Source of the DNA: an uncultured Bacilli bacterium
GTDB lineage: Bacteria; Bacillota_I; Bacilli_A; RFN20; CAG-288
Assembly: GCA_944349335.1 (NCBI GenBank)
Contig: CALVMW010000001.1
Location: 206,309-270,308 of the forward strand
Direction: 5' to 3'
Length of the DNA: 64,000 bases
Shown piece by piece: positions 3,603-37,349 of the stretch; positions within the stretch are counted from its first letter, which is position 1, and each line of letters begins with the position of its first letter. The position numbers and the translations under genes are program-made. The notes under the pieces were generated by a model, which saw only the letters and a list, made by a program, of their open reading frames with translations, had not been told where the DNA came from and did no database searches.

Positions 3603-4722
3603 CTTCTAACTCCTTTGCTAAATCTTTATTCTCTTCATCTTTAATATTATCGACTAGCTCTTCTAAAACATCATCCATAGAGATAATGCCTTTATTGACA
3701 CCATTCTCCATTACGATACCTAAATGGACTTTTTCAGCATTCAAGGTTTTAAAACAATCATCTAAAGGAGTATCGATATTTATAAAAACAGGTTTTTCAA
3801 GTATCGATTGAATAGGAAAATGTTTATCTTTAGTATATTCTTCAAAATAAAGACGTAAAACTAAAATACCGATAATATTATCTTTATCATCTTCATAAAT
3901 CGGAATTCTCGAATAATCTTTTTCAATGATGACTGAGTTTATCGTTTCATAATCTAACTCATCGATACTTAAAGAAAAAACTTTCTCTTTAGAAGTATAG
4001 ACATCCCTCACTTTTCTCATATCAAAAGTTAAGACATTATCAATAATCTCTGTCTCATCATTTTCAAAAAGCTTTTCAGCTTCATTCTCATCATCAATAT
4101 TATCTTCATCATTGATAGCTTCACTAACCGACTGCATAAGCTGTTCTTTAGAAAGTAAGTTCTGATCTTTAACTTTGAATATTTTATGAACTAAAGCTAA
4201 AACCCCTCTAAAGAGAATCGTAATCGGAAATAGAATAATCGAAACAAAAGTGACAGGATAAGCTAAAAATATAGCCATTTTATTAGGTATTGTTTTAGAG
4301 AGGATCTTAGGAACTGTATCTGAAACAATATAGACTAAAGCCGCCATAACGATAGTCGATAAAACAGACTCAACACCTTCTGATAAACCAAATGCGAGAC
4401 ATATATTATAAAAGATCATCGCACTTAAAAAGGACATAATAGTCTGTACAATATTATTTCCAACTAAAACAGTAACTAATGTATTATCAAATTTATCAAC
4501 TAAGCGAGTTACTAATTTCGCTGTAAAATTGCCTTTATTAGCTAAAGACTGAAAATGATATCTATTACAATTTGTATAAGCATTTTCACTAGCAGAAAAT
4601 AATCCGCTAACAAGAAGAAGAACACAGATGACTATGATACATGCATAAAACGGCATGCCCCATATACTTATCTCATTTAAATCAATATTATTAGCTAGCA
4701 GGCTACATAGGTCAGGGTCCAC
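3595..4722 (-). CDS. CNNM/CBS membrane protein lacking the CorC_HlyC domain
   Basis: A paralogue of the next gene, 375 residues. It has the DUF21/CNNM membrane part (segments near 23-43, 95-130 and 160-190) and a CBS pair (FDMRKVRDVYTSKEKVFSL; GIVMENGVNKGIISMDDVLEELV). It stops shortly after the second CBS motif, so the C-terminal CorC_HlyC domain of its neighbour is absent. The start is a GTG at 4722 behind an AAAGGAG site. An acidic insert (residues about 205-225, rich in D, E and N) separates membrane and CBS parts. Family function is metal-ion homeostasis; the substrate cannot be read from sequence. Confidence 0.85.
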   Translation of the reverse strand: MDPDLCSLLANNIDLNEISIWGMPFYACIIVICVLLLVSGLFSASENAYTNCNRYHFQSLANKGNFTAKLVTRLVDKFDNTLVTVLVGNNIVQTIMSFLSAMIFYNICLAFGLSEGVESVLSTIVMAALVYIVSDTVPKILSKTIPNKMAIFLAYPVTFVSIILFPITILFRGVLALVHKIFKVKDQNLLSKEQLMQSVSEAINDEDNIDDENEAEKLFENDETEIIDNVLTFDMRKVRDVYTSKEKVFSLSIDELDYETINSVIIEKDYSRIPIYEDDKDNIIGILVLRLYFEEYTKDKHFPIQSILEKPVFINIDTPLDDCFKTLNAEKVHLGIVMENGVNKGIISMDDVLEELVDNIKDEENKDLAKELEDE

Positions 4723-8189: not shown

Positions 8190-10466
8190 TTATTCTTTAT
8201 CGTTACGCTTAGATTTAAGAAGTTCACGTATCGATTTAGCTTGCTTCTTATCAGTGGGAGCAGAAATAGGTTTAGTAGGTTTTATAAGTTTGCCAGTATT
8301 TACTGAATAATATCCTTCCTTTAAAGCTTGCTGGCGATTGTTAGTAAGAGTATCTTGCTTCGAATTAAGGAAGATAGGATTAACGCTTGATTGAACTTTA
8401 GTTACGGCTTTTTCAAAAGCTTCTTGAGCTGTCAAATTACCTTGATAGACTCTTATCTTATGCTTCTTTACATCGAAACTAACTTTTTGAGGATCGATAG
8501 CTTTAATATCTTTATTGCGAGCACGGATAGGATGTAAAGGTCCACTAATCTTCTTAGGAGCTTGACTCTCTTTTTCACTAATCTCAGCTTTCTCAGCTTC
8601 TTTCTCTTCTTCTTTAATCGGCTCAGCTAAGACAAACTTATCAGGTCTAATAGGCTCTTTCTTCTCTTTAATAAGAGGTTCAAGAGGTTTATGAGCTTCT
8701 CTAACTTCAGAAGTGACCTCTTCTTTATCTTGAGTAGTAACCTTCTCTTCCTCTTTAACTTCAGGAATATCTATAGTACTACTCTTAACTTCTCTAGGCT
8801 CTTCTTTAGTCTTCTGATCACTAGGACTTATAACTTCTTCAGGTTCAATAGGAGCAATATAAGTTTCCTTAGTGTAATCTTTTCTTTCACTTAAGTCATT
8901 AACTGCTATAAATTCAACATATTCACTTCTATCACTAGCTAACTCTTTAACTTCTTTTTCATGCTCTTCTTCTTGCGGTCTTAAGCCATCATTTAGTGAA
9001 GAATTGATGGCAACAACATGAGTCTCTTTAGGAGCAGTATAAGTTTCCTTAGTGTAATCTTTTCTTTCACTTAAGTCGTTAACTGCGATAAGTTCAACAT
9101 ATTCACTTCTATCACTAGCTAACTCTTTAACTTCTTTTTCATGCTCTTCTTCTTGCGGTCTTAAGCCATCGTTTAATGAAGAATTGATTGCAACAACGTA
9201 AGTCTCTTTAGGAATAGTATAAACAACTTTAGAATAATCTACTCTCGTATTTAGATCGTTGATAGCAATAATTTCTAAATAATCTTTTCTATCAGATAAG
9301 GTTTCTTTTAATACGTAAGGATGAATCTCTTCTTGTGGTCTTATGCCGGTAATAAGAGGAGCATTGATAGCGATAATAGTAACTAATTGTAGAGGTTCTC
9401 TCTCTTCAATAATAATCGGTTTACTTACTTCTTCTTTACCTAATTGAGTAATATCTTCTTTCTCTCTAACTACATCGATGAATGGGTGATCATTTAAATC
9501 ATCTAAGCCAGGAAGATAATCAGGTCTCTCATATTCACTACCTAAAGAAATGTAGATCTCATCAGCTAAAACATTCTCTTCAGGTAAGAAACGAATCTTA
9601 GGTAGATTATTAGGATCTAAGGATTCAATTATTTTTTCAACGTCGCTCTCTTCTAATAAAGGAAGAGTAAAGGGACCTTTATCTTTTAATCCTTCAAGAG
9701 AATCTAATATTTTAACTTCACGATAAGTAGGTAAGATAGCTTTGCCTAGTTGCTCGACTTCTTTTACTTCAACTTCCTTTATTACCTCTTCATTAGGTTT
9801 ACTCTGTTCCTCAACTACTTTAACTTCCTTTTTCCTCTTTTTAATCATAGCTAAAATATCGATAAGCCAAGAAACTATAAGAACTATAGCTAAAAGATAA
9901 ATAAAAGCAGAGAAGTATTCAGTACCATAAGGGATAGCAAGAGAAGCAAGTACACCACTAGAAGCAAATAAATTAGCTAATTGATTTAAAGGATTAGTAA
10001 ATAGAATGATACCTTGACTAGATAAGACATTCATTACAATAGCAAAATCATAGAAGAGAAGGAAAGCTAAGACTAAAATAGCCGATAAAATTAAAAAAGT
10101 ATAACGGAGAGGACGAACTTTTCTTTCAGAGGATTTAATTCTCCCGATTAAGACAAAAGGTAGATAGAAGAAGAAAAGTAGAATGATAGTAAAAAGGTAA
10201 TAGCAACAGAAGAAAATAAATGATCCATACTCAAAGGAAGAAAATAGATCAGGGACTCCTAAAGCGCTTTTAAAATAGAGGATTAGATTATCAAAAATAT
10301 CTTTGAATTCTGAAGAAGGAAAGATAGATTCAGCAGCAGGAGTAAAAGCAACTACTAAAAGCGCTACACCAACCAATAAGAAAATTAGCCAAACGACGAA
10401 AAAGACAAGGCTAACTACATGCCTCTTCTTTCCGCCACCAGGCTCTTGGGCTACATTTTTATTCAT
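8190..10466 (-). CDS. Membrane protein with three 60-residue repeats, function unknown
   Basis: 758 residues. The N-terminal 210 carry four or five hydrophobic segments (about 15-45, 65-95, 108-140 and 188-212). The rest is a long charged, probably cytoplasmic region. At about residues 358-540 come three tandem 60-residue units of the pattern VVAINSSLNDGLRPQEEEHE ... ELIAVNDL; the last two are almost identical and the first is more diverged. A proline- and glutamate-rich stretch follows, then a conserved-looking basic end (KIRVYQGNLTAQEAFEKAV). The start at 10466 has a GGAGG site. I do not recognise a family. A membrane scaffold or cell-division accessory is conceivable, but nothing in the sequence decides it. 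Confidence 0.8.
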   Translation of the reverse strand: MNKNVAQEPGGGKKRHVVSLVFFVVWLIFLLVGVALLVVAFTPAAESIFPSSEFKDIFDNLILYFKSALGVPDLFSSFEYGSFIFFCCYYLFTIILLFFFYLPFVLIGRIKSSERKVRPLRYTFLILSAILVLAFLLFYDFAIVMNVLSSQGIILFTNPLNQLANLFASSGVLASLAIPYGTEYFSAFIYLLAIVLIVSWLIDILAMIKKRKKEVKVVEEQSKPNEEVIKEVEVKEVEQLGKAILPTYREVKILDSLEGLKDKGPFTLPLLEESDVEKIIESLDPNNLPKIRFLPEENVLADEIYISLGSEYERPDYLPGLDDLNDHPFIDVVREKEDITQLGKEEVSKPIIIEEREPLQLVTIIAINAPLITGIRPQEEIHPYVLKETLSDRKDYLEIIAINDLNTRVDYSKVVYTIPKETYVVAINSSLNDGLRPQEEEHEKEVKELASDRSEYVELIAVNDLSERKDYTKETYTAPKETHVVAINSSLNDGLRPQEEEHEKEVKELASDRSEYVEFIAVNDLSERKDYTKETYIAPIEPEEVISPSDQKTKEEPREVKSSTIDIPEVKEEEKVTTQDKEEVTSEVREAHKPLEPLIKEKKEPIRPDKFVLAEPIKEEEKEAEKAEISEKESQAPKKISGPLHPIRARNKDIKAIDPQKVSFDVKKHKIRVYQGNLTAQEAFEKAVTKVQSSVNPIFLNSKQDTLTNNRQQALKEGYYSVNTGKLIKPTKPISAPTDKKQAKSIRELLKSKRNDKE
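8851..9390. repeat. Three tandem 180-bp repeats inside a coding region
   Basis: Units begin at about 8851, 9031 and 9211 with exactly 180-bp spacing (for example GGAGCAATATAAG, GGAGCAGTATAAG, GGAATAGTATAAA). The first two are nearly identical in DNA, which indicates a recent duplication. The unit is 60 codons, so copy-number change keeps the frame. Confidence 0.85.
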
Positions 10467-19254: not shown

Positions 19255-19329
19255 TGGGATATAGTCAAGCGGTAAGACAGCAGTCTCTGAAACTGTGATT
19301 CCTTGGTTCGAATCCAAGTATCCCAGCCA
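19255..19329 (+). tRNA. tRNA-Gln (anticodon CTG), prophage insertion site
   Basis: Acceptor TGGGATA with TATCCCA, anticodon stem GCAGT/ACTGT (one wobble) around CTCTGAA (anticodon CTG), T-arm CTTGG-TTCGAAT-CCAAG, discriminator G, encoded CCA, then a run of eight T. It reads CAG. Its last 17 bases belong to the 36-bp att repeat, so the integrated element restores rather than breaks the tRNA. Confidence 0.95.
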
Positions 19330-19348
19330 TTTTTTTTGCTTAAAAAAT
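19313..19348. repeat. attL, 36-bp direct repeat in the tRNA-Gln 3' end
   Basis: A perfect 36-base match to 32217-32252. It starts TCCAAGTATCCCAGCCA (tRNA 3' end), continues with eight T, and ends GCTTAAAAAAT. The stop codon of the integrase lies inside it. This is the classic arrangement of a tyrosine-integrase element in a tRNA gene. Confidence 0.95.
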
Positions 19349-20320
19349 TGAACTTAATTTATCATCTAAAATAGCGCAAATCTTCGCTTTTTTCTCTTCT
19401 GAATCACCTATATAATAACGCTTTGTAACTTCAAAAGAATCATGACCTAAATAATCTTTAATAGATTCTTGTGATAAACCATTCTCTAATAAAAAACTAG
19501 CTTCACTTCTTCGAAAAGCGTGAAAAGTAAACTTATTTAAATTAGCTTCTTTAATACATTTTCTCATCATTCTATTGATTGTACTAGAACCAATAGGTAT
19601 ATCTTTACTTCTTTTAGAACAAAATAAAAAATTTTCTTTATGTAATTTATTTTTCTTAATATAAATATATAACCTTTTAAATAAAAAACCTGGTAACAAA
19701 ATAGATCTATTAGAATTTTCACTCTTAACTGATGTTACTTCAAACTTCCCTTTACCTATTTCTACAACTTGTTGATATATATATAATTCATGAGAATTAA
19801 AATCTACTGCATCAATAGTTATTCCTCTTGTTTCTCCTATCCTTAAAGCACAAACAAAAGCAGTTAAAAACAATAATTTAAATCTTTCTTCATTTAAACA
19901 ATCATAAAACCTTTTAAAATCACTAATCGATAAAAAATATTTTTTCTTCTTAATTTTCTTAATAGAATAATCTTTTGGAACATAAAGTTTTTTATATTCA
20001 ACATTATGTAAACCATAATATAAATCTAAAAATTCAAAAATACCTTTTAAATCACTTTTAATTCTCTTTTTTACATAAGAAGAACACTTTAATCTATTCC
20101 ACCAAAAAATTAAGATTGAATAGTCTATTTCACTAACATCAATATTAGGTAATAACCTCACATATTTATTTATTCTATTATATGCACTATAAAAAGATGA
20201 TTCTTTAATCCGATTTTTTAAATTCATAAAATAAAAATCTATTAAATCATAAAATTTTAAATTTTTATTTTTAAATGAATAAATTAATTCATCTTCGCTT
20301 TTGTTGAGATAATTTTTCAT
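19340..20320 (-). CDS. int: Tyrosine integrase of the element
   Basis: 326 residues. An N-terminal SAM-like arm-binding part (about 1-120) precedes the catalytic domain, with the first catalytic arginine in CALRIGETRG, the HxxR in HAFRRSEASFLL, the histidine in YLGHDSFEVT and the nucleophile tyrosine in KRYYIGD. It integrates and excises the element at tRNA-Gln. It overlaps the end of rep by 32 bp, so it is translated from the same message. Its stop codon lies within attL, so excision changes the sequence just after the coding end. Confidence 0.94.
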   Translation of the reverse strand: MKNYLNKSEDELIYSFKNKNLKFYDLIDFYFMNLKNRIKESSFYSAYNRINKYVRLLPNIDVSEIDYSILIFWWNRLKCSSYVKKRIKSDLKGIFEFLDLYYGLHNVEYKKLYVPKDYSIKKIKKKKYFLSISDFKRFYDCLNEERFKLLFLTAFVCALRIGETRGITIDAVDFNSHELYIYQQVVEIGKGKFEVTSVKSENSNRSILLPGFLFKRLYIYIKKNKLHKENFLFCSKRSKDIPIGSSTINRMMRKCIKEANLNKFTFHAFRRSEASFLLENGLSQESIKDYLGHDSFEVTKRYYIGDSEEKKAKICAILDDKLSSIF

Positions 20321-21551
20321 AATTGCATCCCATAGAAACTAAAGTATTTTTAATTAAAGATAAAACTTCTTCATCACTTAAAATTTCACCAGTAATACCT
20401 AAAAAATAATTCTTAATCTGAAATATAATTTTTTCTTCTATACCATGTTTATCCAAATATTCTTCCATGAAGGATTTTAAATAACTATTAAAATCACCAG
20501 TTGCCATAGTTTTCAATAATGTAGACATCCAGTAATCTTTAATCCAAGTAAAAGATTTAGTAATACTTTCTTCAATTTTTGATTGATCAGATGGAACTCT
20601 TACTTTTTCGACACTACCTAAAAATTTCAAATAAGATTTCCAAGTAGATAATTTTGACATATTCTTATTTACATCTCTTTTATAAGAACCATTAACTTTA
20701 AAATCAATTAAACCATATAAAACAGATTTTGATAATTTACCAAATTCATTATTTAAAAAAGCCTTTTTTAATAATACTTTACAAAAATATTCACATTTTT
20801 CTTTTGTTAAAGAAAATTCAAATCTAACCCAAGAACTAACACCAGATACTATATTTTTAGAAGAGCGTTCAGCTTTTTTATCATATATATTAAGCAAAAT
20901 AGAAGATGATCTACTACCAAAAGTGCAAGTATAACCAGCTCGAGTATCAAAAATATGTGTTTGATTTCTCTCATCTAAATCATCTTCATATTCTTCATCT
21001 AAAGACAAAGAATATTTTTCATCACCAATTTTACCATTAACTTTTTTACCACGAAAAACAGAAGTAAAATTTTGCTTATATATTTTATCTTTAATATCAT
21101 CAATATTCAAATAACCATCAATATCATCACAGGCTATATCAATTCTTTTAAACCTGCATCGAACTTTATCTGAAAGAAAAAACAATAATTCTTTCCAAGA
21201 ACCACCTCTCATTTCAAAATGACGACAACCAGAACCAGATATTTCAATTATAAACTGATACTTTTCACCTTCAACTCTACCAGAATCTTCAACATCAATA
21301 CCTACTTTTAAATCTTCATTATAAATTAAAGTTTTTCGATACTTTAAAGTTCTCAAATCATTTCTTTCAGATTCATAATATGAATTAATATCTAACTTTA
21401 AAATATTAAATAATTCTAATAACTTACTAGATGGATTATTTAAATCAAAATTTTCAAAAACAACAAATCTAAACCAATCAATTAAAACAGATTGAATATT
21501 TTTAGATAATACTTCATTTTGTAAATCAGTTTTTGAGAAATTTTTTTTCAT
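20289..21551 (-). CDS. Rep_trans-type replication initiation protein
   Basis: 420 residues from the ATG at 21551, spaced 8 bases from AGGTGG (a GTG 12 bases upstream falls inside that site). It shows the Rep_trans (PF02486) order: VLIDWFRFVVF, ISGSGCRHFEMRGG, RFKRIDIACDDIDG, TCTFGSRSSSILLNIYDKKAE and WVRFEFSL. The family includes CTX-phage RstA and Gram-positive rolling-circle initiators. It should nick the double-stranded form at the origin, most likely in the GC-rich interval just upstream. A catalytic tyrosine could be in the YDKKAE segment, but I cannot prove it by eye. Confidence 0.85.
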   Translation of the reverse strand: MKKNFSKTDLQNEVLSKNIQSVLIDWFRFVVFENFDLNNPSSKLLELFNILKLDINSYYESERNDLRTLKYRKTLIYNEDLKVGIDVEDSGRVEGEKYQFIIEISGSGCRHFEMRGGSWKELLFFLSDKVRCRFKRIDIACDDIDGYLNIDDIKDKIYKQNFTSVFRGKKVNGKIGDEKYSLSLDEEYEDDLDERNQTHIFDTRAGYTCTFGSRSSSILLNIYDKKAERSSKNIVSGVSSWVRFEFSLTKEKCEYFCKVLLKKAFLNNEFGKLSKSVLYGLIDFKVNGSYKRDVNKNMSKLSTWKSYLKFLGSVEKVRVPSDQSKIEESITKSFTWIKDYWMSTLLKTMATGDFNSYLKSFMEEYLDKHGIEEKIIFQIKNYFLGITGEILSDEEVLSLIKNTLVSMGCNYEKLSQQKRR

Positions 21552-21599
21552 ACTCTTTACCACCTAATTTATTGATAACTATCGAATTATTTAAATAAA

Positions 21600-21857: not shown

Positions 21858-23291
21858 TTATCGTTTTAGCTTAGTTTTGTTCTTATCCAGAACAGAGCTA
21901 ATAAACATTTCAAAATTTTTATCATCTATATCAGGCACTTTTTGACTATCAAAATCTATATCATCATATAAATGAGATTCTGATTCGTTAACTAGATAAT
22001 CATGTAAAATTGAAAAATTATAAGTATCTGAACTTCCGTAACAAAAGCACAAAGGAAAAATAAATTTCTCTTTAAACACATTTGAGGAATAATCACTTTC
22101 TGATCTTTCAACATCATCAGGATTAGTAAAATATTTTCCCTTATAACTAATGAACCCATCAGCAAATATCTTATTCTTCGCATTATTTAAAACAGACAAT
22201 ATCTTTTTAATCTTGCTTTCTTTTAAAGAAGATAATCTACTATACTTCTCAAAATTAGCATTTAATTTATCTGGAATAACTAAATCATAATTCTTTAATG
22301 ATTCGATCTTCTTATTAATAGATGATAAACGAGCTTGACCGATTGAATTTAATATTCCTAAATAAAAAATTTGATAACGTTCTAAAAAATCAATTGCAAA
22401 ATCGATAAACACCGATTTTAAAGAATAGCCTAAATGTTCTTCTCTCTTTTCAATATAGAAAACACCAGTAGCTAATTCTCTTTCTTGTTTAACAATACGA
22501 GTAAAATCTTGAGCAGTGATAATTGTATGTATTGTTCCTTTTCCAAAATGGCGAATAAGGCGATAAAAAACATCTGCTCCACCATCCTCTCGAGCTACCG
22601 CAAAAGCCTCAGTAGAAACTTTACCCGTGAGAGCTTTTTCATCTTCAAAAATAGTTGTATATCTTAAAATAGAATAATCTTTTTCAAGAGATCTATTTTT
22701 AATATCAATCATATCGGGATTATATGGCATTGCCCAATTTTTTGTACTATAACAATAAAACTTTCGATTCCAAAAATAACAATAATTATTTCTTAATACC
22801 GCTAAATAAGCGTCAATGTAATCTCTTAATAATGAAATATATGAAACTGGATATAAACCAGCGTCATAATATTTATTTAATAGCTTATCTCTTAGATCCT
22901 TATGATTTTCTAAAAGATAATTTAAAAGAAGATTTGAATTATTTATTTTTAATTCTTTAAAAGCGACTGAAATAAGAGAATCAATCTCATTAAAATCAAC
23001 ATTATTAAATATAATTCTAATATCATCTATCTTTTTCAATGCTTGCTCTTTCTTGATATCAGCTAATATATTTACTAATCCAGATGAACATGTAGTCTTT
23101 CCACAACCAATATTTCCGCATACATAAGTAATCAATCCAAAATAAGGAGATGCAACAAAATTCTTTGTATTTAAAACTCCTTTAGCGTATCCATATCTTT
23201 GAAAATAAGTAACAACAGGAGAAAAGATAAAAAAATAAGTTAAAGCATAGATAGGAATTAATGCAACTAACAAAATTTGAACATTACTCAT
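21858..23291 (-). CDS. Zot-like (pI) morphogenesis ATPase, membrane anchored
   Basis: 477 residues from the ATG at 23291 behind AAGGAGG. A membrane helix lies at about 3-27, then Walker A YVCGNIGCGKTT near 60-70. A Walker B-like strand ending in acidic residues (TTIFEDEKAL) lies near 205, and RHFGKGTIHTIITAQDFTRI near 248 resembles the conserved H-G-D-TQ segment of Zot proteins. Zot/pI ATPases extrude filamentous phage through the membrane. The C-terminal 150 residues are less conserved. A HerA/FtsK-type DNA pump for transfer is the alternative. It overlaps the small membrane protein gene by 8 bp. Confidence 0.7.
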   Translation of the reverse strand: MSNVQILLVALIPIYALTYFFIFSPVVTYFQRYGYAKGVLNTKNFVASPYFGLITYVCGNIGCGKTTCSSGLVNILADIKKEQALKKIDDIRIIFNNVDFNEIDSLISVAFKELKINNSNLLLNYLLENHKDLRDKLLNKYYDAGLYPVSYISLLRDYIDAYLAVLRNNYCYFWNRKFYCYSTKNWAMPYNPDMIDIKNRSLEKDYSILRYTTIFEDEKALTGKVSTEAFAVAREDGGADVFYRLIRHFGKGTIHTIITAQDFTRIVKQERELATGVFYIEKREEHLGYSLKSVFIDFAIDFLERYQIFYLGILNSIGQARLSSINKKIESLKNYDLVIPDKLNANFEKYSRLSSLKESKIKKILSVLNNAKNKIFADGFISYKGKYFTNPDDVERSESDYSSNVFKEKFIFPLCFCYGSSDTYNFSILHDYLVNESESHLYDDIDFDSQKVPDIDDKNFEMFISSVLDKNKTKLKR

Positions 23292-23508
23292 CTTTATCTT
23301 CCTCCTTGCTACCATTTAGATCTCTTTCTTCTTTACTAAAATGTTTTGAATAATATCTAATTAAAGATTTTTTAGATCTAAATGGAGAAAACAACAATAC
23401 TAATCCATAAATAGGAAGATAAATAATATAAAAACATAGAAAGAATATCCAATATAAAGGCATAAGAATGATAGGAAAATAATCTGGTATAAATTTTAAC
23501 TTTATCAT
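23284..23508 (-). CDS. Small membrane protein, candidate coat or assembly protein
   Basis: 74 residues. Residues about 9-43 are continuously hydrophobic (long enough for one or two helices) and the C-terminal 30 are strongly charged (SKEERDLNGSKEEDKDE at the end). There is no obvious signal peptidase site. In filamentous phages the gene just before the ATPase is often a minor or major virion membrane protein, so this is the best coat candidate here, but the match is positional only. A decayed copy of the same gene lies at about 32520-32600. Its start region overlaps the -35 box of the rightward promoter at 23508. Confidence 0.7.
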   Translation of the reverse strand: MIKLKFIPDYFPIILMPLYWIFFLCFYIIYLPIYGLVLLFSPFRSKKSLIRYYSKHFSKEERDLNGSKEEDKDE

Positions 23509-23536
23509 TGACTTTACTCCTTTCTATTAATATACT
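23508..23536 (+). promoter_or_regulatory. Rightward promoter of the small RNA at 23543
   Basis: TTGACT (23508-23513), exactly 17 bases, TATACT (23531-23536), on the strand opposite the structural genes. The same promoter, also with a 17-base spacer, recurs in the relic at 32598-32626. Confidence 0.75.
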
Positions 23537-23542
23537 TATATC

Positions 23543-23625
23543 AATCAACATTCTGTTGAGCGTGATTAGGTGTGTCGAAGTCCCTAACATTGTGACCGGG
23601 TGTGTCGAAGTCCCCGGCATTTTTT
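23543..23625 (+). ncRNA. Candidate phage small RNA with twin identical hairpin loops
   Basis: From the predicted start (about 23543) the RNA folds as CAACA-TTC-TGTTG, then two hairpins with the same 12-base loop TGTGTCGAAGTC, then a T run at 23620-23625. The stems are TTAGG/CCTAA (23566-23587) and CCGGG/CCCGG (23596-23617): three of five base pairs differ but all stay paired. The last hairpin with its T run is an intrinsic terminator. The unit fills the whole gap between two leftward genes. No known RNA family is recognised; repeated loops suggest a binding or sponge role. Confidence 0.65.
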
Positions 23626-23977
23626 ATTTATAAATTATTTTTAAATATTTATAAGGTAATGAATCAATTCTACTATGCTTTCTTTCTTTTAAAGTAGATT
23701 CGCAAATATTAATATCTCTACTATCAATACCAGACCAATGTTCATTACCTAGAACATTTTTATTTAAAGGAAATATATCTCCATTCTTTGCTCTTTTTAA
23801 AGCATCATAATCATATCTATAACAACGTCTACTCCTATCATAATGTTCCAAACTAGTAATTGTTTTAACTCTACACTTTTTATTTTTCCTATTATGATTC
23901 AAAACAACTACATCATGACTAGAACTAATTCCTAAATCATTTCCTGATACATTAAAAACTTTTTCTACATATTTCAT
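23624..23977 (-). CDS. Small basic protein of the element, unknown
   Basis: 117 residues, start with GGAGGATT upstream. Rich in R, K, H and Y, with no membrane segment. It contains VVVLNHNRKNKKCRVKTITS, then LKRAKNGDIFPLNKNVLG. The pattern of a hydrophobic strand followed by H-x-KNxKK recurs in the 103-residue protein at 28706 (LTLMHSPKNGKKKNYLL), so the two may be distant relatives. A nucleic-acid-binding or regulatory role is possible. Its stop coincides with the end of the small RNA on the other strand. Confidence 0.65.
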   Translation of the reverse strand: MKYVEKVFNVSGNDLGISSSHDVVVLNHNRKNKKCRVKTITSLEHYDRSRRCYRYDYDALKRAKNGDIFPLNKNVLGNEHWSGIDSRDINICESTLKERKHSRIDSLPYKYLKIIYK

Positions 23978-26344: not shown

Positions 26345-28594
26345 TCACTCTAATCCAAGTTCGGCATTTGTGTACCATCCTCTTCCACATAGCCAGTTCC
26401 ATAAACACTGGAATCCATCGATCCACCACTTACAGAAAGCAGACCACCAATCTAATTCATCTTCAATATCTTCAACTTGATCACCTTGAACTCTTAAGGT
26501 AAATGATTTTCCAGTTGAACTTTCTTCAACTCCTTCTTCGTTTAAATAATCATAAGAATAAGTAACTATATAATCACCAGCTTCCGTAGGAGTAGCTAAA
26601 TAAGATTCGGCGTCATAATATAAAGTAGTGATGTCATAATCAGAAGCTAATCCATTCACAATTACTTTTTCAATTTGAGAAGAAGATAGAGGATTATCAG
26701 TAGAAGCTAAAACTAAAGCATCTCCTAATATAAATACTGGAGGAACATCAGCTAAAACTTCAACTTCAACAGTTAACGAACCAAAATTACCAGAATCATC
26801 ATGAGCTTGTAATTTAACAGTATATTCTCCAACATGATTTTCGATAAAATCACCATTAACATCTAATGTATCAGATACATCACCATCGACATCATCAGTA
26901 GCCTCAAACAACTGACAAAATTCTTTTTCAGTTAAATTTAAAACTTTACTTAAACCAATCTTTATTACACCTTCACCAGCATCTTTTCTCGATATAACAG
27001 GGGCATCTTCATCTAATACTTCAATATTAAAAGTTAAAGAACTATCATTTCCAGAAGAATCAACTGCAGTAACTACTAATTGATGAACTCCAACATCAGA
27101 ACTCTTAAATGTTTTTGAAGTTAAATTTGAACCATCTAATTTAAATGATAAAGTAGGATTTTCATCATAATCATCACTCACAGAAAAATATGTTGCTAAA
27201 TTTACTGATGAAATAGTATCACCAATAGAATATTCTTCTTTAAAAGTATCCAAATTTTCAATTTCAGGCTTAACATCATCATGAAGAATAAATCTTAAAT
27301 TAACATTAACAAAATTATCATCACAAGAAACAGCAAAAGAACTTGTGGTAATTTTATTTAAAGAACCATCTTTTTTAAACATATTTCCCCATGGAAAATT
27401 TTCCTTACCAATTTCAGAACAATTTAAACCAAAATATTTTGTAGGATCAATATTTAAATCAGAATAAATTTTCTCATCACTATAAGAAGTATAATAATCA
27501 TATACTTCTAAAGATTCCATCCCTTCATAAATATCACCAATAACATAATCTTTATCTGTGTAAATAGTAACTTTTAAATTAGAAAATGAATTAGAAGGAG
27601 CCAAAGATTCAACTTTAGGTCCATATGAAAAAATTAAATTTCTTATATTTAAAAATTCTGAAATTTCACCAAAAGTTTTTAATAAAACACTATAATCAGC
27701 ACCATCAGTAAACCTTTCTCTATTTTGAACTTCATTTAAAGCACCACACTCTACATTATCAGACCAATAATTAACATCTTCTATAAAAGTATTAGAAGAA
27801 AAAGTAGAAACAACAGGATTATAATGTAAACCTGAATAAGAAAAATCAACTTTTAAATATTTAACTTCATTAAAATTTAACAAAGAAGAAGAATTAAACT
27901 TAAAACAAAAACTACCTAAATTACCATTACTAACAACATTTAAATAATCATTTTCAGAAATAATTTGTGAAACATCATTCCAATTATCTGCCTTAAATTC
28001 TTCATTTAAAATAACTTGTTCCTTATATTCAGTTAAATCAACTGAATCACTATCAGAAATAGAATTATTTATCCCTAAATTATAAAATGATAAATTACAT
28101 GGAGTTGATACACAATTTCCTTCCAAAACAAGAGGTAAATTAGAATTAATGAATGAATCTTTAAAATTTTCAGGTGAAATAAAAAGAAAATGCTTTGTTG
28201 CATCTAATATTCCACATTCAGTTATAAAAGTACTTTGACTATCATCAAAAGTATATTTATCACAATATAAAATAAAATAATCAGTATCAACATCTATTCC
28301 TAAATCAGTAAAAATATCAGTAACACCATCAGAAGACTGTATAGTAAATACAGTAGAATCTGTTGGAGAAGAATAATTATAAATTAAAGCATCCTCAGAA
28401 TTAATAGTTTTAACATAAAATTGATCATTCAAAATATCTAAATCTGATATATTAATATCTAACCAACTTTTATTATTAATAAAATTATTAAAATCTTCTT
28501 TTAATAAATAATTATAATCTAAAGATTGATTAATAGGACTCATGGCTAATAATGCTAATGATCCTAATAAAATTTTCTTCATACTTCTTTTCAT
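26345..28594 (-). CDS. Exported Ig-like repeat protein with Trp/Cys-rich tail (long paralogue)
   Basis: 749 residues, AAGGAG before the ATG. Signal peptide (KKILLGSLALLAMSPINQ), then an unfamiliar 430-residue region. Next come two or three Ig-like domains of the HYR/DUF5011 type (GVHQLVVTAVDSSGNDSSLT; GEYTVKLQAHDDSGNFGSL). A 37-residue tail (ELDWWSAFCKWWIDG ... NAELGLE) holds seven Trp and three Cys. From the last Ig domain to the end it closely matches the 446-residue paralogue, and the tail is identical. A receptor-binding or tip protein whose tail sits in the membrane interface is plausible. Surface adhesion for the host is the alternative. Confidence 0.75.
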   Translation of the reverse strand: MKRSMKKILLGSLALLAMSPINQSLDYNYLLKEDFNNFINNKSWLDINISDLDILNDQFYVKTINSEDALIYNYSSPTDSTVFTIQSSDGVTDIFTDLGIDVDTDYFILYCDKYTFDDSQSTFITECGILDATKHFLFISPENFKDSFINSNLPLVLEGNCVSTPCNLSFYNLGINNSISDSDSVDLTEYKEQVILNEEFKADNWNDVSQIISENDYLNVVSNGNLGSFCFKFNSSSLLNFNEVKYLKVDFSYSGLHYNPVVSTFSSNTFIEDVNYWSDNVECGALNEVQNRERFTDGADYSVLLKTFGEISEFLNIRNLIFSYGPKVESLAPSNSFSNLKVTIYTDKDYVIGDIYEGMESLEVYDYYTSYSDEKIYSDLNIDPTKYFGLNCSEIGKENFPWGNMFKKDGSLNKITTSSFAVSCDDNFVNVNLRFILHDDVKPEIENLDTFKEEYSIGDTISSVNLATYFSVSDDYDENPTLSFKLDGSNLTSKTFKSSDVGVHQLVVTAVDSSGNDSSLTFNIEVLDEDAPVISRKDAGEGVIKIGLSKVLNLTEKEFCQLFEATDDVDGDVSDTLDVNGDFIENHVGEYTVKLQAHDDSGNFGSLTVEVEVLADVPPVFILGDALVLASTDNPLSSSQIEKVIVNGLASDYDITTLYYDAESYLATPTEAGDYIVTYSYDYLNEEGVEESSTGKSFTLRVQGDQVEDIEDELDWWSAFCKWWIDGFQCLWNWLCGRGWYTNAELGLE

Positions 28595-28610
28595 AATTTT
28601 CTCCTTTTTA

Positions 28611-28639
28611 TTGACAATAATTTTTTATTTTTTTATAAT
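28611..28639 (+). promoter_or_regulatory. Perfect consensus promoter of the small RNA at 28646
   Basis: TTGACA (28611-28616), 17 bases, TATAAT (28634-28639): both hexamers and the spacer match the sigma-70/SigA consensus. It points away from the gene whose ribosome site lies 3 bases before it on the other strand. Confidence 0.85.
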
Positions 28640-28645
28640 TAGTTA

Positions 28646-28707
28646 GTGCCATTTTTAATTGAGCTAATGACTCGATGGGGTTAGAAATAACTGAATGGCA
28701 CTTTTTT
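28646..28707 (+). ncRNA. Candidate 60-nt phage small RNA with three-way junction
   Basis: Starting 7 bases after the TATAAT, the transcript begins GTGCCATT and ends AATGGCAC followed by six T, so the ends close an 8-bp stem that doubles as the terminator. Inside are ATTGAG/CTCGAT around the 7-base loop CTAATGA, and GTTA-GAAA-TAAC, a GNRA tetraloop hairpin. A diverged copy with its own promoter lies at 32366-32427 and keeps the CTAATGA string exactly. It fills the gap between two leftward genes and is antisense to the leader of the 749-residue gene. No known family is recognised. Confidence 0.7.
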
Positions 28708-29017
28708 AATGAGTAAATTTTCTAAATTTATTTAATATATATTCTCTATCTTCAAAATTACTTATCTGTAATTTTGGCCTAGAAACACCATAAGTAGTTT
28801 TATCAAAACATCTAATACGATTTTCTAAATAACTTTTTCTATTATCTTTTAAACTAGGATTTTTCTTTAAAAGATAATTCTTTTTTTTTCCATTCTTTGG
28901 GGAATGCATTAATGTTAATGAAGCATATCTTCTATTACTTTCAGCTCCTACTAATGTATTATGTTTAATCTTCTTATTAAATCTAAAATGCAAGGGAACA
29001 GGTCTAAATACTTCCAT
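28706..29017 (-). CDS. Small basic protein of the element, unknown
   Basis: 103 residues, AAGGAGG before the ATG. Very rich in K, R, N and Y with no signal or membrane segment. Contains RRYASLTLMHSPKNGKKKNY and DNRKSYLENRIRCF. It lies between the two Ig-like paralogues, so it may have been part of the duplicated block. Resembles the 117-residue protein at 23624 only in the H-x-KNGKK pattern. Nucleic-acid binding is a guess from charge. Confidence 0.65.
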   Translation of the reverse strand: MEVFRPVPLHFRFNKKIKHNTLVGAESNRRYASLTLMHSPKNGKKKNYLLKKNPSLKDNRKSYLENRIRCFDKTTYGVSRPKLQISNFEDREYILNKFRKFTH

Positions 29018-29107: not shown

Positions 29108-30448
29108 TCACTCTAATCCAAGTTCGGCATTTGTGTACCATCCTCTTCCACATAGCCAGTTCCATAAACACTGGAATCCATCGATCCACCATTTACAAAA
29201 GGCAGACCACCAATCTAATTCTTCTTCTTCCTGTTGTTCATCTCCAACAACATCAACTTGTAATATTCCTGATTCTTCCTCTTCTTCGTGTGTTTCAGCA
29301 GAAACATATTTAATCTGATATGGAACTGCGTAAGTACCAGCTTTTAATTTACCTTCTTGATATTCTGTATCATCAAAACTAAGTTCATTGACTGTATCAT
29401 TAGAATAGATACCATTCACTATTACTTTTTCAATCTGATCAGAAGAAAGAGGACTATCAGTAGTAGCTTGAATTAAAGCATCAGATAAAATGAAAACCGG
29501 AGGAACATCAGATAAAACTTCAACTTCAACAGTTAAAGAGCCAAAATTACTAGAATCATCATGAGCTTGTAATTTAACAGTATAATTACCAACATGATTA
29601 TCAATAAAATCACCATTGATTGCTAAAGTATCAGAAACATCACCATCAATATCATCTTCAGCTGTAAAGAGATCTAAAAAATCTTGTTGCTCCATGCTTA
29701 AGACTTTACTTAAACCAATCTTTATAACACCTTCTCCAGCATCTTTTCTAGAAATGACAGGTGCATTTTTATCCAAAACTGATAAATCAAAACTTTCTAC
29801 TGTTTCATTTTCAGAACTATCAGATACTGTTACTTTTAAAATATGAGAACCAACATCAACTGATGTTAATTCAAGTTCTGATAAAGGAGAATCGTCTAAT
29901 GTGAAAGTAGGTTCACCAATAGTACCACCTTTATCAGTTGCATTATCAGTAATAGTAAAATAAGTTTTTAAGTTTTCAGCAGTCAAAGAATCACCAGGAA
30001 CAAACTCTAATTTCTTTTCAGCTCCTAAAACTACAACAGGAGCGACAATATCAATAACTTGTATATTTAAATAACAAGTAGCTTGTTGACCGTATGTATC
30101 AGTTGCGGTCACTGTTATTAAATAAGTACCTAACTGATTAGGATTATACTTTTCTCTTTCTTCTGGTGAACATTCAACTTCTACTGCTTCACCTAACAAA
30201 TCTTCAGCTGTGATTTGAGAAAGAATTTCATCGATTGTAGGAGCTGAATCAACATTGACAGGTATATCTACTGTTTCACCATCCTCAACTCGATGAGGAT
30301 CATCTTCATCACCTTCAGCTAAAGTAACTGCATTTACTGGTTTTACATCGTTATAAACGAATTCAACTTGATTATTAACGTTAGGTGCATTTAAAGAACC
30401 TAAAGATAACAATGTCATAAATCCTAAGAATAATCTTCTCTTTTTCAT
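29108..30448 (-). CDS. Exported Ig-like repeat protein with Trp/Cys-rich tail (short paralogue)
   Basis: 446 residues. Signal peptide (RLFLGFMTLLSLGSLNAP), a region rich in D, E, V and P, then three Ig-like DUF5011/HYR-type units (GTYLITVTATDTYGQQATC; GSHILKVTVSDSSENETV; GNYTVKLQAHDDSSNFGSL). The same 37-residue Trp/Cys tail as the 749-residue protein follows. The DNA of the last 110 coding bases differs from the paralogue at only about three positions, although the N-terminal halves are unrelated, so the tail is under strong constraint or recently converted. It overlaps the upstream 62-residue gene by 1 bp. Confidence 0.75.
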   Translation of the reverse strand: MKKRRLFLGFMTLLSLGSLNAPNVNNQVEFVYNDVKPVNAVTLAEGDEDDPHRVEDGETVDIPVNVDSAPTIDEILSQITAEDLLGEAVEVECSPEEREKYNPNQLGTYLITVTATDTYGQQATCYLNIQVIDIVAPVVVLGAEKKLEFVPGDSLTAENLKTYFTITDNATDKGGTIGEPTFTLDDSPLSELELTSVDVGSHILKVTVSDSSENETVESFDLSVLDKNAPVISRKDAGEGVIKIGLSKVLSMEQQDFLDLFTAEDDIDGDVSDTLAINGDFIDNHVGNYTVKLQAHDDSSNFGSLTVEVEVLSDVPPVFILSDALIQATTDSPLSSDQIEKVIVNGIYSNDTVNELSFDDTEYQEGKLKAGTYAVPYQIKYVSAETHEEEEESGILQVDVVGDEQQEEEELDWWSAFCKWWIDGFQCLWNWLCGRGWYTNAELGLE

Positions 30449-31827: not shown

Positions 31828-32199
31828 ATGAACCAAATATTAGAAACAATAAAAAAGATAAGAAAATCAAAAAAAATTTCACTAAGAAAAATGGGAGAAC
31901 TAATTAATGTTTCATATTCAACATATAATGATATAGAAACTGGAAAAATTAGACTCTCGTTAGAAAACTTTTTATTGATATGCAAGGTACTTGAAATCAA
32001 TCCTCTTAGCTTATTAACTAATGAAAACTATATTATCCTCTCCAATAAAGACATTAAAGAAATTGATAATATGATTTATACTTTACAAAAAATAAAAAAA
32101 CAAATTTTAAATAAAGAAGAACCAGAAAACATAAAAATCGAAAATTCCTTTAACAATTCAACAAATACAAACATTAATATAGGAAATAAAAATAAATAA
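31828..32199 (+). CDS. XRE-family HTH repressor of the element
   Basis: 123 residues. The N-terminal Cro/C1-type helix-turn-helix (KKISLRKMGELINVSYSTYN, residues about 12-32; then DIETGKIRLSLENFLLICKV) is clear. The remaining 50 residues end in an Asn-rich tail (NNSTNTNINIGNKNK). It is the only rightward gene of the element and faces the leftward operon across palindromes, so it is probably the immunity repressor. No clear ribosome site precedes the ATG. It ends 17 bp before attR. Confidence 0.85.
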   Translation: MNQILETIKKIRKSKKISLRKMGELINVSYSTYNDIETGKIRLSLENFLLICKVLEINPLSLLTNENYIILSNKDIKEIDNMIYTLQKIKKQILNKEEPENIKIENSFNNSTNTNINIGNKNK

Positions 32200-32216: not shown

Positions 32217-32252
32217 TCCAAGTATCCCAGCCATTTTTTTTGCTTAAAAAAT
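32217..32252. repeat. attR, 36-bp direct repeat
   Basis: Identical over 36 bases to 19313-19348. It duplicates the last 17 bases of tRNA-Gln but no tRNA body precedes it. Beyond it begins relic sequence related to the element. Confidence 0.95.
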
Positions 32253-32605
32253 AGAATTTATATAAAAAATCATCTTTTAAAATTACTGTACTTATCTTCA
32301 TACTTTTCTTCATAATTTTCTTCTTTTTATTGAAAATATTTTTTTTACTTTTTTATAATTAGTTATTGCCATTTTTAGATGACCTAATGACGCGTTTGGG
32401 TTAAAAATAACTTGGTGGCACTTTTTTTGTGGAGCATTTACAGTTAAAATATCTAATTACTCATAATTCTTTTTTATTTATTCTTTAAATTTTATTCCTC
32501 TTTATTAAAATACTTTACATAAAATCATAAAAAGAATATCAAATATAAAAGTATATAAATGATAGATGGATAACCTAGTATGAAGGTTAATTTATCATTG
32601 ACTTT
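32253..32605. pseudogene. Eroded remains of a second, related element
   Basis: Directly after attR the minus strand reads a decayed integrase end (VILKDDFLYKFYF against AILDDKLSSIF), joined to the start region of a gene like the 749-residue protein (a start codon with KKSMK and its AAGAA leader, near 32318). Next comes a diverged copy of the 28611-28707 promoter/RNA unit (32330-32427). Then, at about 32500-32605, comes a copy of the small-membrane-protein start region, where the frame reads MIN and then a stop. This is what a related prophage at the same tRNA would leave after internal deletion. Confidence 0.65.
32366..32427 (+). ncRNA. Diverged copy of the 60-nt small RNA, probably relic
   Basis: Promoter TTGAAA (32330-32335), 18 bases, TATAAT (32354-32359). 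The transcript has TTGCCA near its start and TGGCAC plus seven T at the end, keeps the CTAATGA string, and keeps a GTTA-AAAA-TAAC hairpin. The arms beside CTAATGA no longer pair at two inner positions, so the fold is weakened. Useful as an evolutionary comparison for 28646-28707. Confidence 0.5.
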
Positions 32606-32626
32606 ACTCCTTTCTTAATATATATT
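32598..32626 (+). promoter_or_regulatory. Rightward promoter in the relic, cognate to 23508-23536
   Basis: TTGACT (32598-32603), 17 bases, TATATT (32621-32626). The surrounding sequence from ATCATTGACTTTACTCC onward matches 23504-23520 closely. Confidence 0.75.
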
Positions 32627-32632
32627 CTAATC

Positions 32633-32719
32633 ATCAAAAAGCTTCTAGCAATTTATCGAGCTTTTTCTTCCCCTTAACCTAGGAGGCTAGTTCCTAGCAA
32701 GCAGTTAAGGGGGTTTTTC
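32633..32719 (+). ncRNA. Candidate small RNA with two terminator-like domains
   Basis: Starting 7 bases after the TATATT. AAAAAGCT (32636-32643) pairs with AGCTTTTT (32659-32666). Then CCCCTTAAC (32670-32678) pairs with GTTAAGGGG (32704-32712) enclosing CTAGGA/TCCTAG (32679-32697), and a T run follows. The promoter is homologous to that at 23508 but the RNA body is different, so position and promoter are conserved while the RNA has been exchanged or has evolved fast. The structure is intact, so this may still be expressed. Confidence 0.55.
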
Positions 32720-32722
32720 TTT

Positions 32723-33092
32723 TATTCATAATTATTCTAAATGCTTTAATACTAGAATTATTATTTATAGTATCAATAATATTTTTCATTTTTATAACAC
32801 GTCATAATATAAAAATAAGAACCTTTATTAAAACAATAATATACAGCTTGTTTTTTATAATAGATAAAAGATGAAACAAAATGAGTTAGGAAGTGAAAAT
32901 AAATCATCAATAATAATCTAATCTCTTTTATATATTTAAATAATAAAAGAACTTTAATGTAACTTAATATAATTTATTCTTTAGATATATATTTTATTAA
33001 ACCAAACAATCAACCTATTTTATATTAATAAAATTGTTTTTTATTCACTAGAGTCAATTTATATGTGACATTTATTGTTCATCTATTTTTGA
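32723..33092. other. Non-coding AT-rich stretch before pcrA
   Basis: Very A+T rich, with no gene, RNA gene or further att copy that I can see. It ends in the pcrA promoter. Confidence 0.5.
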
Positions 33093-33098
33093 TATAAT
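33093..33098 (+). promoter_or_regulatory. -10 box of pcrA, leaderless arrangement
   Basis: TATAAT ends 7 bases before the pcrA ATG, so transcription would start at or one base before the start codon. No Shine-Dalgarno is present. Confidence 0.55.
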
Positions 33099-33105
33099 TA
33101 TTGTC

Positions 33106-37349
<4,244 letters not shown>

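Follow-up and report, generated by a model that had tools for sequence, protein, structure and literature searches.

The RNA gene at positions 32598–32718 of the window (the whole 64,000-nucleotide stretch of DNA from an uncultured Bacilli bacterium that was analysed here) is best read as an orphan left over from an RNA/protein module whose protein partner has gone. The module seems to represent a type of RNA-controlled toxin-antitoxin (TA) system not described before, present in many versions in uncultured gut-type Bacilli, on filamentous-phage-like elements as well as on chromosomes. In these modules, the RNA gene has a sigma-70-type promoter and an intrinsic terminator of its own and lies opposite a protein gene of about 105 aa, usually tail-to-tail. 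We estimate a probability of roughly 60% that the RNA is the antitoxin of a toxin with MazF-type fold, in a layout unlike that of known type III systems, and that the gene at 32598 (RNA gene beta) is the orphan RNA of such a module. According to this proposal, the protein would be a toxin-like endoribonuclease, and the structured RNA, expressed from its own promoter, would be the cognate antitoxin, binding and neutralising the protein directly as in type III systems despite the other genetic layout. Phages and chromosomes would swap whole RNA-protein modules, so that each RNA type pairs with its own protein type. Since the RNA would be harmless alone and would shield its carrier from incoming modules of the same type, selection would keep RNA genes in relics after loss of the protein.

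An inovirus-like prophage and the relic beside it

Two intact modules are found in the window (23508–23977 and 28611–29017; Table 1). They are carried by an intact inovirus-like prophage of 12.9 kb, which encodes a tyrosine integrase (PF00589) and combines the two features by which inoviruses are recognised, a rolling-circle Rep (PF02486) and a Zot-like ATPase of the pI/Zot morphogenesis type; the ATPase, for which no Pfam match was obtained, was assigned by alignment alone. The 74-aa gene next to zot, whose homologues occupy the same site in other elements, encodes a putative pVI/Ace-like protein, judging by position and hydrophobicity only. The second cassette of the prophage is located before a 749-aa gene (26345–28594), the product of which has an Ig-like and C-terminal region in common with that of the 446-aa gene (29108–30448); the two are apparently paralogous surface or coat proteins. 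All prophage genes are on the minus strand except an HTH repressor-like gene near the right end (31828–32199), which is probably the lysogeny regulator. Searching viral contigs with Zot and Rep returned nothing.

Table 1. Features of the intact prophage and of the adjoining relic, in window coordinates.
Feature	Position	Strand	Evidence or remarks
Left attachment repeat, 3' end of tRNA-Gln	19313..19356	+	44 bp
Tyrosine integrase	19340..20320	-	PF00589
Rolling-circle replication protein	20289..21563	-	PF02486
Zot/pI-like P-loop ATPase	21858..23315	-	family alignment, G..GKTT motif
74-aa putative pVI/Ace-like membrane protein gene, directly upstream of zot	23284..23508	-	source of conserved flank
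RNA gene alpha	23508..23625	+	TTGACT-N17-TATACT, three small hairpins, T-run overlaps 117-aa gene stop codon
117-aa protein gene, HP...THS family, alpha partner	23624..23977	-	HMM E 2.6e-7
RNA gene kappa, intact copy	28611..28707	+	TTGACA-N17-TATAAT (consensus), closed three-way RNA
103-aa predicted MazF-fold protein gene, kappa partner	28706..29017	-	AlphaFold pLDDT 96.9; listed Foldseek PDB matches all MazF
Right attachment repeat	32217..32260	+	42/44 identical to left repeat
RNA gene kappa, relic copy (orphan)	32330..32428	+	TTGAAA-N18-TATAAT, RNA 32366-32421, T-run
Putative pVI-like 74-aa gene, decayed 5' end (frameshift, early stop)	32519..32600	-	82% to 23428-23534; sequence
RNA gene beta (orphan)	32598..32718	+	-35 TTGACT 32598-32603, -10 TATATT 32621-32626
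Structured beta RNA	~32633-32713; T-run 32714-32718	+	fold and sequence

The relic comprises the 845 bp from 32260 to a uvrD-like gene at 33106 and carries two orphan RNAs (32330–32428 and 32598–32718). By BLASTN, two of its pieces resemble the intact element, namely 32292–32427 and 32519–32622. The first contains a second copy of kappa and is 86% identical to 28573–28707 of the prophage, where the T-run of kappa overlaps the stop codon of the 103-aa gene; in the relic copy, the outer stem is retained and one inner hairpin is eroded. The sequence-only reading had recognised the promoter-RNA unit at 32598 but had not tied the one at 32330–32428 to the relic.

The second piece leads into beta. 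When the two stretches were compared by BLASTN, 32519–32622 matched 23428–23534 at 88 of 107 positions (82%, 3 gaps, E 5e-26), and the match stopped at the promoter, with no alignment further downstream. On the plus strand, the promoters read TTGACT-N17-TATATT at 32598 and TTGACT-N17-TATACT at 23508. The beta RNA (32633–32718) has a folding energy of -27.6 kcal/mol versus -18.6 ± 2.9 for shuffles (z -3.2), and its fold consists of two hairpins followed by GUUUUU. These results agree with the earlier claims that 23508 and 32598 have matching promoters and flanks, that the RNA bodies downstream of them are unrelated, and that the beta RNA forms two hairpins ending in a T run. One correction concerns the conserved flank, which is mainly the 5' coding end of an antisense gene, with its ATG and AGGAG ribosome-binding site. 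The promoter of beta overlaps, on the opposite strand, the ribosome-binding site of the decayed 74-aa gene. A reading of the flank as nothing but a promoter was rejected, since this putative pVI-like gene has its start and ribosome-binding site there. As beta was found in a single copy, its structure stands without covariation support, and no recognisable remnant of a protein partner was detected in 32720–33105.

A BLAST comparison of the whole 12.9-kb element with its own genome yielded three relic pieces only, all of which include an RNA unit or the promoter end of one. The third (L021 9688–10012; C2:181687–182011 of the same genome) is 325 bp long, directly adjoins a tRNA-His gene, is 91% identical to 23328–23653 of the window, and contains nothing beyond the alpha RNA gene and a portion of the 74-aa gene. 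Hence, while the bodies at 32598 and 23508 do differ, the 23508 body is not confined to that site but recurs in this relic. In the second alpha copy (L021 9868–9985), the first hairpin stem exhibits compensatory changes (TTAGG/CCTAA to CCAGG/CCTGG). For the alpha RNA of the window, the fold is no more stable than that of shuffles (z -0.26); together with the erosion of relic kappa, this suggests that some orphan RNAs may simply be in decay.

Several weak DNA matches to the cassette (in L022, L051, L052, G156 and G217) were discarded as chance AT-rich similarity or, in L051 and L052, as a host S10-type promoter. The ribosomal-protein operon promoter at these two loci (in G158 and G048) shares the string TTGACTTTACT...TATACT with the alpha promoter, which suggests that the string is a strong promoter type.

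Exchange of RNA and protein genes as one unit

The genomes used for comparison are uncultured and metagenome-assembled. In one of them (G017, an uncultured Bacilli MAG, CALVKB01), a pattern search and BLAST located cassettes at the equivalent position on contigs C45, C46 and C47, in two copies on C5, in an isolated relic on C48 and in an array on C10; contigs C45 to C48 could come from more than one strain. In the prophage-like contigs C45, C46 and C47, the flanking 74-aa gene is about 92–95% alike and the RNA bodies and small genes are unrelated. The comparison of C45 with C47 delimits the exchanged segment: conservation reaches as far as the 74-aa gene's ribosome-binding site, is lost throughout the RNA and the small gene, and resumes at the ribosome-binding site of the small gene. 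Thus, the unit of exchange is the RNA gene plus the small gene. Collecting homologous loci through the flank, the check suggested with the sequence-only reading, in this way disclosed three unrelated RNA bodies at one site, as modular exchange would produce.

That reading had also proposed specificity or immunity determinants of competing phages. Exchanged specificity modules were indeed found; no sign of superinfection immunity was seen, and immunity to phages is unproven. In its explicit form, this explanation would make the RNA a superinfection-immunity or incompatibility RNA of inovirus-like phages, which blocks pVI-zot-rep of an incoming phage of the same type, the relics then serving as resistance genes. 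The position upstream of pVI-zot, the exchange of types and the presence of same-type relics in the same genome are all in keeping with it. However, host chromosomes carry the same RNA/protein pairs at sites away from phage genes, the second cassette of the same phage stands before the 749-aa gene, and the exchange unit contains the small gene too, so that we regard an immunity RNA as improbable. Because the RNA travels with a MazF-fold gene and arrays are present on host chromosomes, a TA-like pair fits better; phage-to-phage competition is a possible use of such modules.

The association of the RNA with the small gene holds well beyond the prophages. An opposite-strand RNA was found for 43 of 44 family genes inside the order and for all 12 outside it, always with its own promoter. 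A hairpin (dG <= -8) and T-run abutting the stop codon on the opposite strand accompanied 39 of 44 non-redundant family genes versus 63 of 220 control ORFs, and in 4 of the 5 genes missed by this count the RNA overlaps the gene end. For the 12 genes from other orders of the class, judged by eye, the RNA is tail-to-tail in 8 and head-to-head in 4, the latter constituting one subfamily (in G590, G524 and G529).

This geometry bears on a type I-like antisense mechanism, in which the RNA would pair with the 3' region of the small-protein mRNA (in the phage also with the pVI-zot leader) and lead to its degradation, the different bodies being antisense specificities. A convergent layout with contact of the 3' ends is usual in Gram-positive type I systems, and the phage RNA is by construction complementary to the message upstream of zot. 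Pairing with the 3' UTR of the protein gene would be open to tail-to-tail units but not to head-to-head ones, and in the head-to-head modules (L214–L216) the RNA would not be complementary to the 3' end of the gene. Moreover, stems covary and loops are conserved between orders, as recognition by a protein would give, orphan RNAs are retained far from any target message, and the protein has a predicted MazF-type fold instead of being a small membrane peptide. In view of the predicted fold, of loop conservation and of the head-to-head modules, an antisense mechanism is less likely than action of the RNA on the protein.

In the RNA class that was sampled best, the cloverleaf class, covariation was strong. 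Across its 11 units, scored for nested structures only, changes on both sides were seen in 13 of 20 pairs, and the proportion of cells that pair was 91.8% versus 25–55% when slid. The corresponding covariance model matched 33 places in 14 genomes, including genomes not used in model building, mostly on the opposite strand beside a family gene. The loop GCUAAUGAC is common to kappa of the window and to RNAs of G229, G225 and G441, the last of another order, and the closing stems differ. Rfam gave no match in 20 module loci and, within the window, matched tRNAs alone.

In 50 RNAs, sequences just before the closing stem had on average 2.68 mismatches to TTGACA/TATAAT versus 4.95 at AT-matched positions, and the smallest average reached by any of 10,000 null sets was 4.4; the RNAs were curated by hand and some are related, hence they are not fully independent. 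Curation of the RNA starts by hand was necessary because automated unit finding gave several spurious long folds. In this curated set, the closing stem starts a few bases past the -10 box.

RNA similarity was correlated with protein similarity at protein identities below 60% (r 0.51; permutation maximum 0.22), the correlation falling to 0.27 below 45% identity and to none below 35%. Linked inheritance alone can account for the remaining correlation.

At several chromosomal loci, the RNA units form arrays of 2–5, each with its own promoter and terminator, and the last unit meets the protein gene; the neighbouring genes were read from their sequences as probable udk, metK and def. These arrays also bear on a function at the DNA level, that is, a single-strand (minus-strand) origin or a packaging hairpin of a filamentous phage. 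Intergenic hairpins in a probable single-stranded DNA phage would suit such a function, and a promoter can prime synthesis of the complementary strand. Nevertheless, the identical architecture is found on chromosomes with a linked protein gene and without phage genes, up to 5 promoter-RNA-terminator units are arrayed together, and phages have two to four units with terminators at gene ends, which renders a DNA function highly improbable. In one chromosome region each of two further genomes (L130 and L142, in G258 and G267), three complete RNA-protein modules stand in tandem.

A protein family with a predicted MazF fold

The small genes beside the RNAs encode proteins of 117 and 103 aa in the window; those of G017 have 109, 130, 105 and 82 aa, and those of G019 have 100 and 107 aa. 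They align around a His-Pro that is nearly invariant and a Thr-His-Ser motif. With a family profile, members were detected in 56 of the order's 279 genomes and, outside the order, in eight of the genomes sampled. No convincing match to the family was obtained in Pfam, NCBIfam, PHROG, PADLOC or PDB sequences, and two family proteins searched against phage and plasmid records gave none.

AlphaFold, provided with a 33-sequence alignment, predicted a barrel with a C-terminal helix (pLDDT 96.9). All 50 PDB matches listed by Foldseek were MazF-type toxins, with a best probability of 0.99 and TM of about 0.55–0.6, at weak E-values (best 0.083), and PemK/MazF names came first among the matches in a viral structure library. 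The fold assignment rests on the family alignment, since modelling the 117-aa protein from its sequence alone gave a poor result (pLDDT 40.6). Taken together, the predictions point to the fold of MazF toxins; in the MazF active site, the probable counterparts of the conserved His-Pro and Thr positions are Arg-Pro and Thr. The type II systems MazEF and PemIK have the same protein fold, but here a structured RNA takes the place of the adjacent protein antitoxin gene. No protein antitoxin gene was found next to those family genes whose surroundings were read, the neighbours in the window and in G017 being genes for putative phage coat and pVI-like proteins.

The known systems closest in parts are those of type III (ToxIN, CptIN, TenpIN, AbiQ). 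They likewise consist of a structured RNA and a protein of MazF/Kid fold, their RNA and protein types co-vary, and they occur on chromosomes and mobile elements with multiple RNA units. The modelled fold also agrees with the ToxN/Kid/MazF type, all listed PDB matches being MazF-type, though with E-values of 0.08 or higher. Their defining layout is nevertheless different: a single promoter serves an operon in which the antitoxin repeats precede the toxin gene on the same strand, and a terminator separates the two (PMC5086642), whereas the RNA units described here are each equipped with a promoter and a terminator and are encoded opposite the protein gene, either tail-to-tail or head-to-head with it. 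The protein family is also shorter (~105 aa) and matches no known family; neither ToxN, CptN or TenpN nor ToxI gave a match in Pfam, NCBIfam, PADLOC, PDB sequences or Rfam. Type III antitoxins are, in addition, tandem repeats processed by the toxin and form H-type pseudoknots; the tandem units seen here, in arrays of 2–5, have separate promoters and terminators.

Type I toxins are small hydrophobic peptides, and the family proteins, about 105 aa, basic and with a predicted barrel fold, are of another kind. Similarity to type I exists in the arrangement: in yonT/SR6 of prophage SPbeta, too, a small RNA is convergent to the gene, the 3' ends meet, and the site is a prophage. SR6 of Bacillus subtilis is described as overlapping the 3' end of the toxin gene and the next gene (PMC5848175). 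The modules described here differ in the MazF-type fold predicted for the protein, in the conservation of RNA structure and loops, and in that some RNAs lie 5' of the gene.

The carriers of the window modules are inovirus-like prophages with Zot/pI, a PF02486 Rep and a tyrosine integrase. The open-access literature searched contained no description of RNA-protein modules in inoviruses, nor of the module layout. If the RNA neutralises the protein, the modules would constitute a widespread, unlisted RNA-protein TA family, with a layout of no described type III system and a new fold-sharing branch of the MazF superfamily. They also offer natural, closely matched RNA/protein pairs for the study of diverging RNA-protein specificity.

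RNAs that outlive their protein genes

RNA genes persist without a functional protein gene in several genomes. Beside metK, the protein gene present in G046 is absent in G225, and the flanks are 93% and 85% identical and the RNA unchanged. In G132 (L173), an intact RNA stands next to a frameshifted protein gene; contig C10 of G017 has four RNAs with decayed genes, and G232 and G223 have orphan RNA arrays. The reverse was essentially never seen among the 56 family genes examined, one weak match at a locus edge being a doubtful case. RNA without protein repeatedly, and protein without RNA in no clear case, is what a toxin and its antitoxin predict.

The same asymmetry weighs on the view that the RNA and the MazF-fold protein form a regulatory or defence ribonucleoprotein with no addiction relation. 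A shared fold is no proof of shared function, toxicity is a property that we infer, and varied RNA arrays beside one gene look like a repertoire. The one-sided losses nevertheless match antitoxin and toxin, and a ribonucleoprotein of this kind is rather unlikely.

Persistence of antitoxins as a guard against addiction modules after toxin loss is a long-discussed idea, for which the many orphan RNAs, among them the one beside metK that a clean loss of the protein gene left behind, provide a test. Under the toxin-antitoxin reading, beta may have been retained for protection against modules like those of the neighbouring prophage; RNA survival in relics could also be due in part to chance deletion endpoints. 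More tentatively, and with considerable doubt, arrays of orphan antitoxin-like RNAs in the cells and phages of this bacterial class may represent a heritable repertoire against MazF-fold modules of competing elements, with relics trimmed to their RNA units and arrays recording past encounters. Immunity to addiction modules would then be conferred by RNA, in a manner distinct from CRISPR as well as from the type I and type III systems known so far.

An otherwise compact phage (L059) carries promoter-RNA-terminator units at 3967–4102 and 8313–8394 without a recognisable MazF-fold partner, possibly phage-borne antitoxin-only RNAs. The array on contig C10 (L102, ~28–31 kb) consists of four different RNA cassettes in tandem, with decayed phage genes between them, and ends beside a UvrD-like helicase gene, comparable to the position of the window relic before the uvrD-like gene at 33106.
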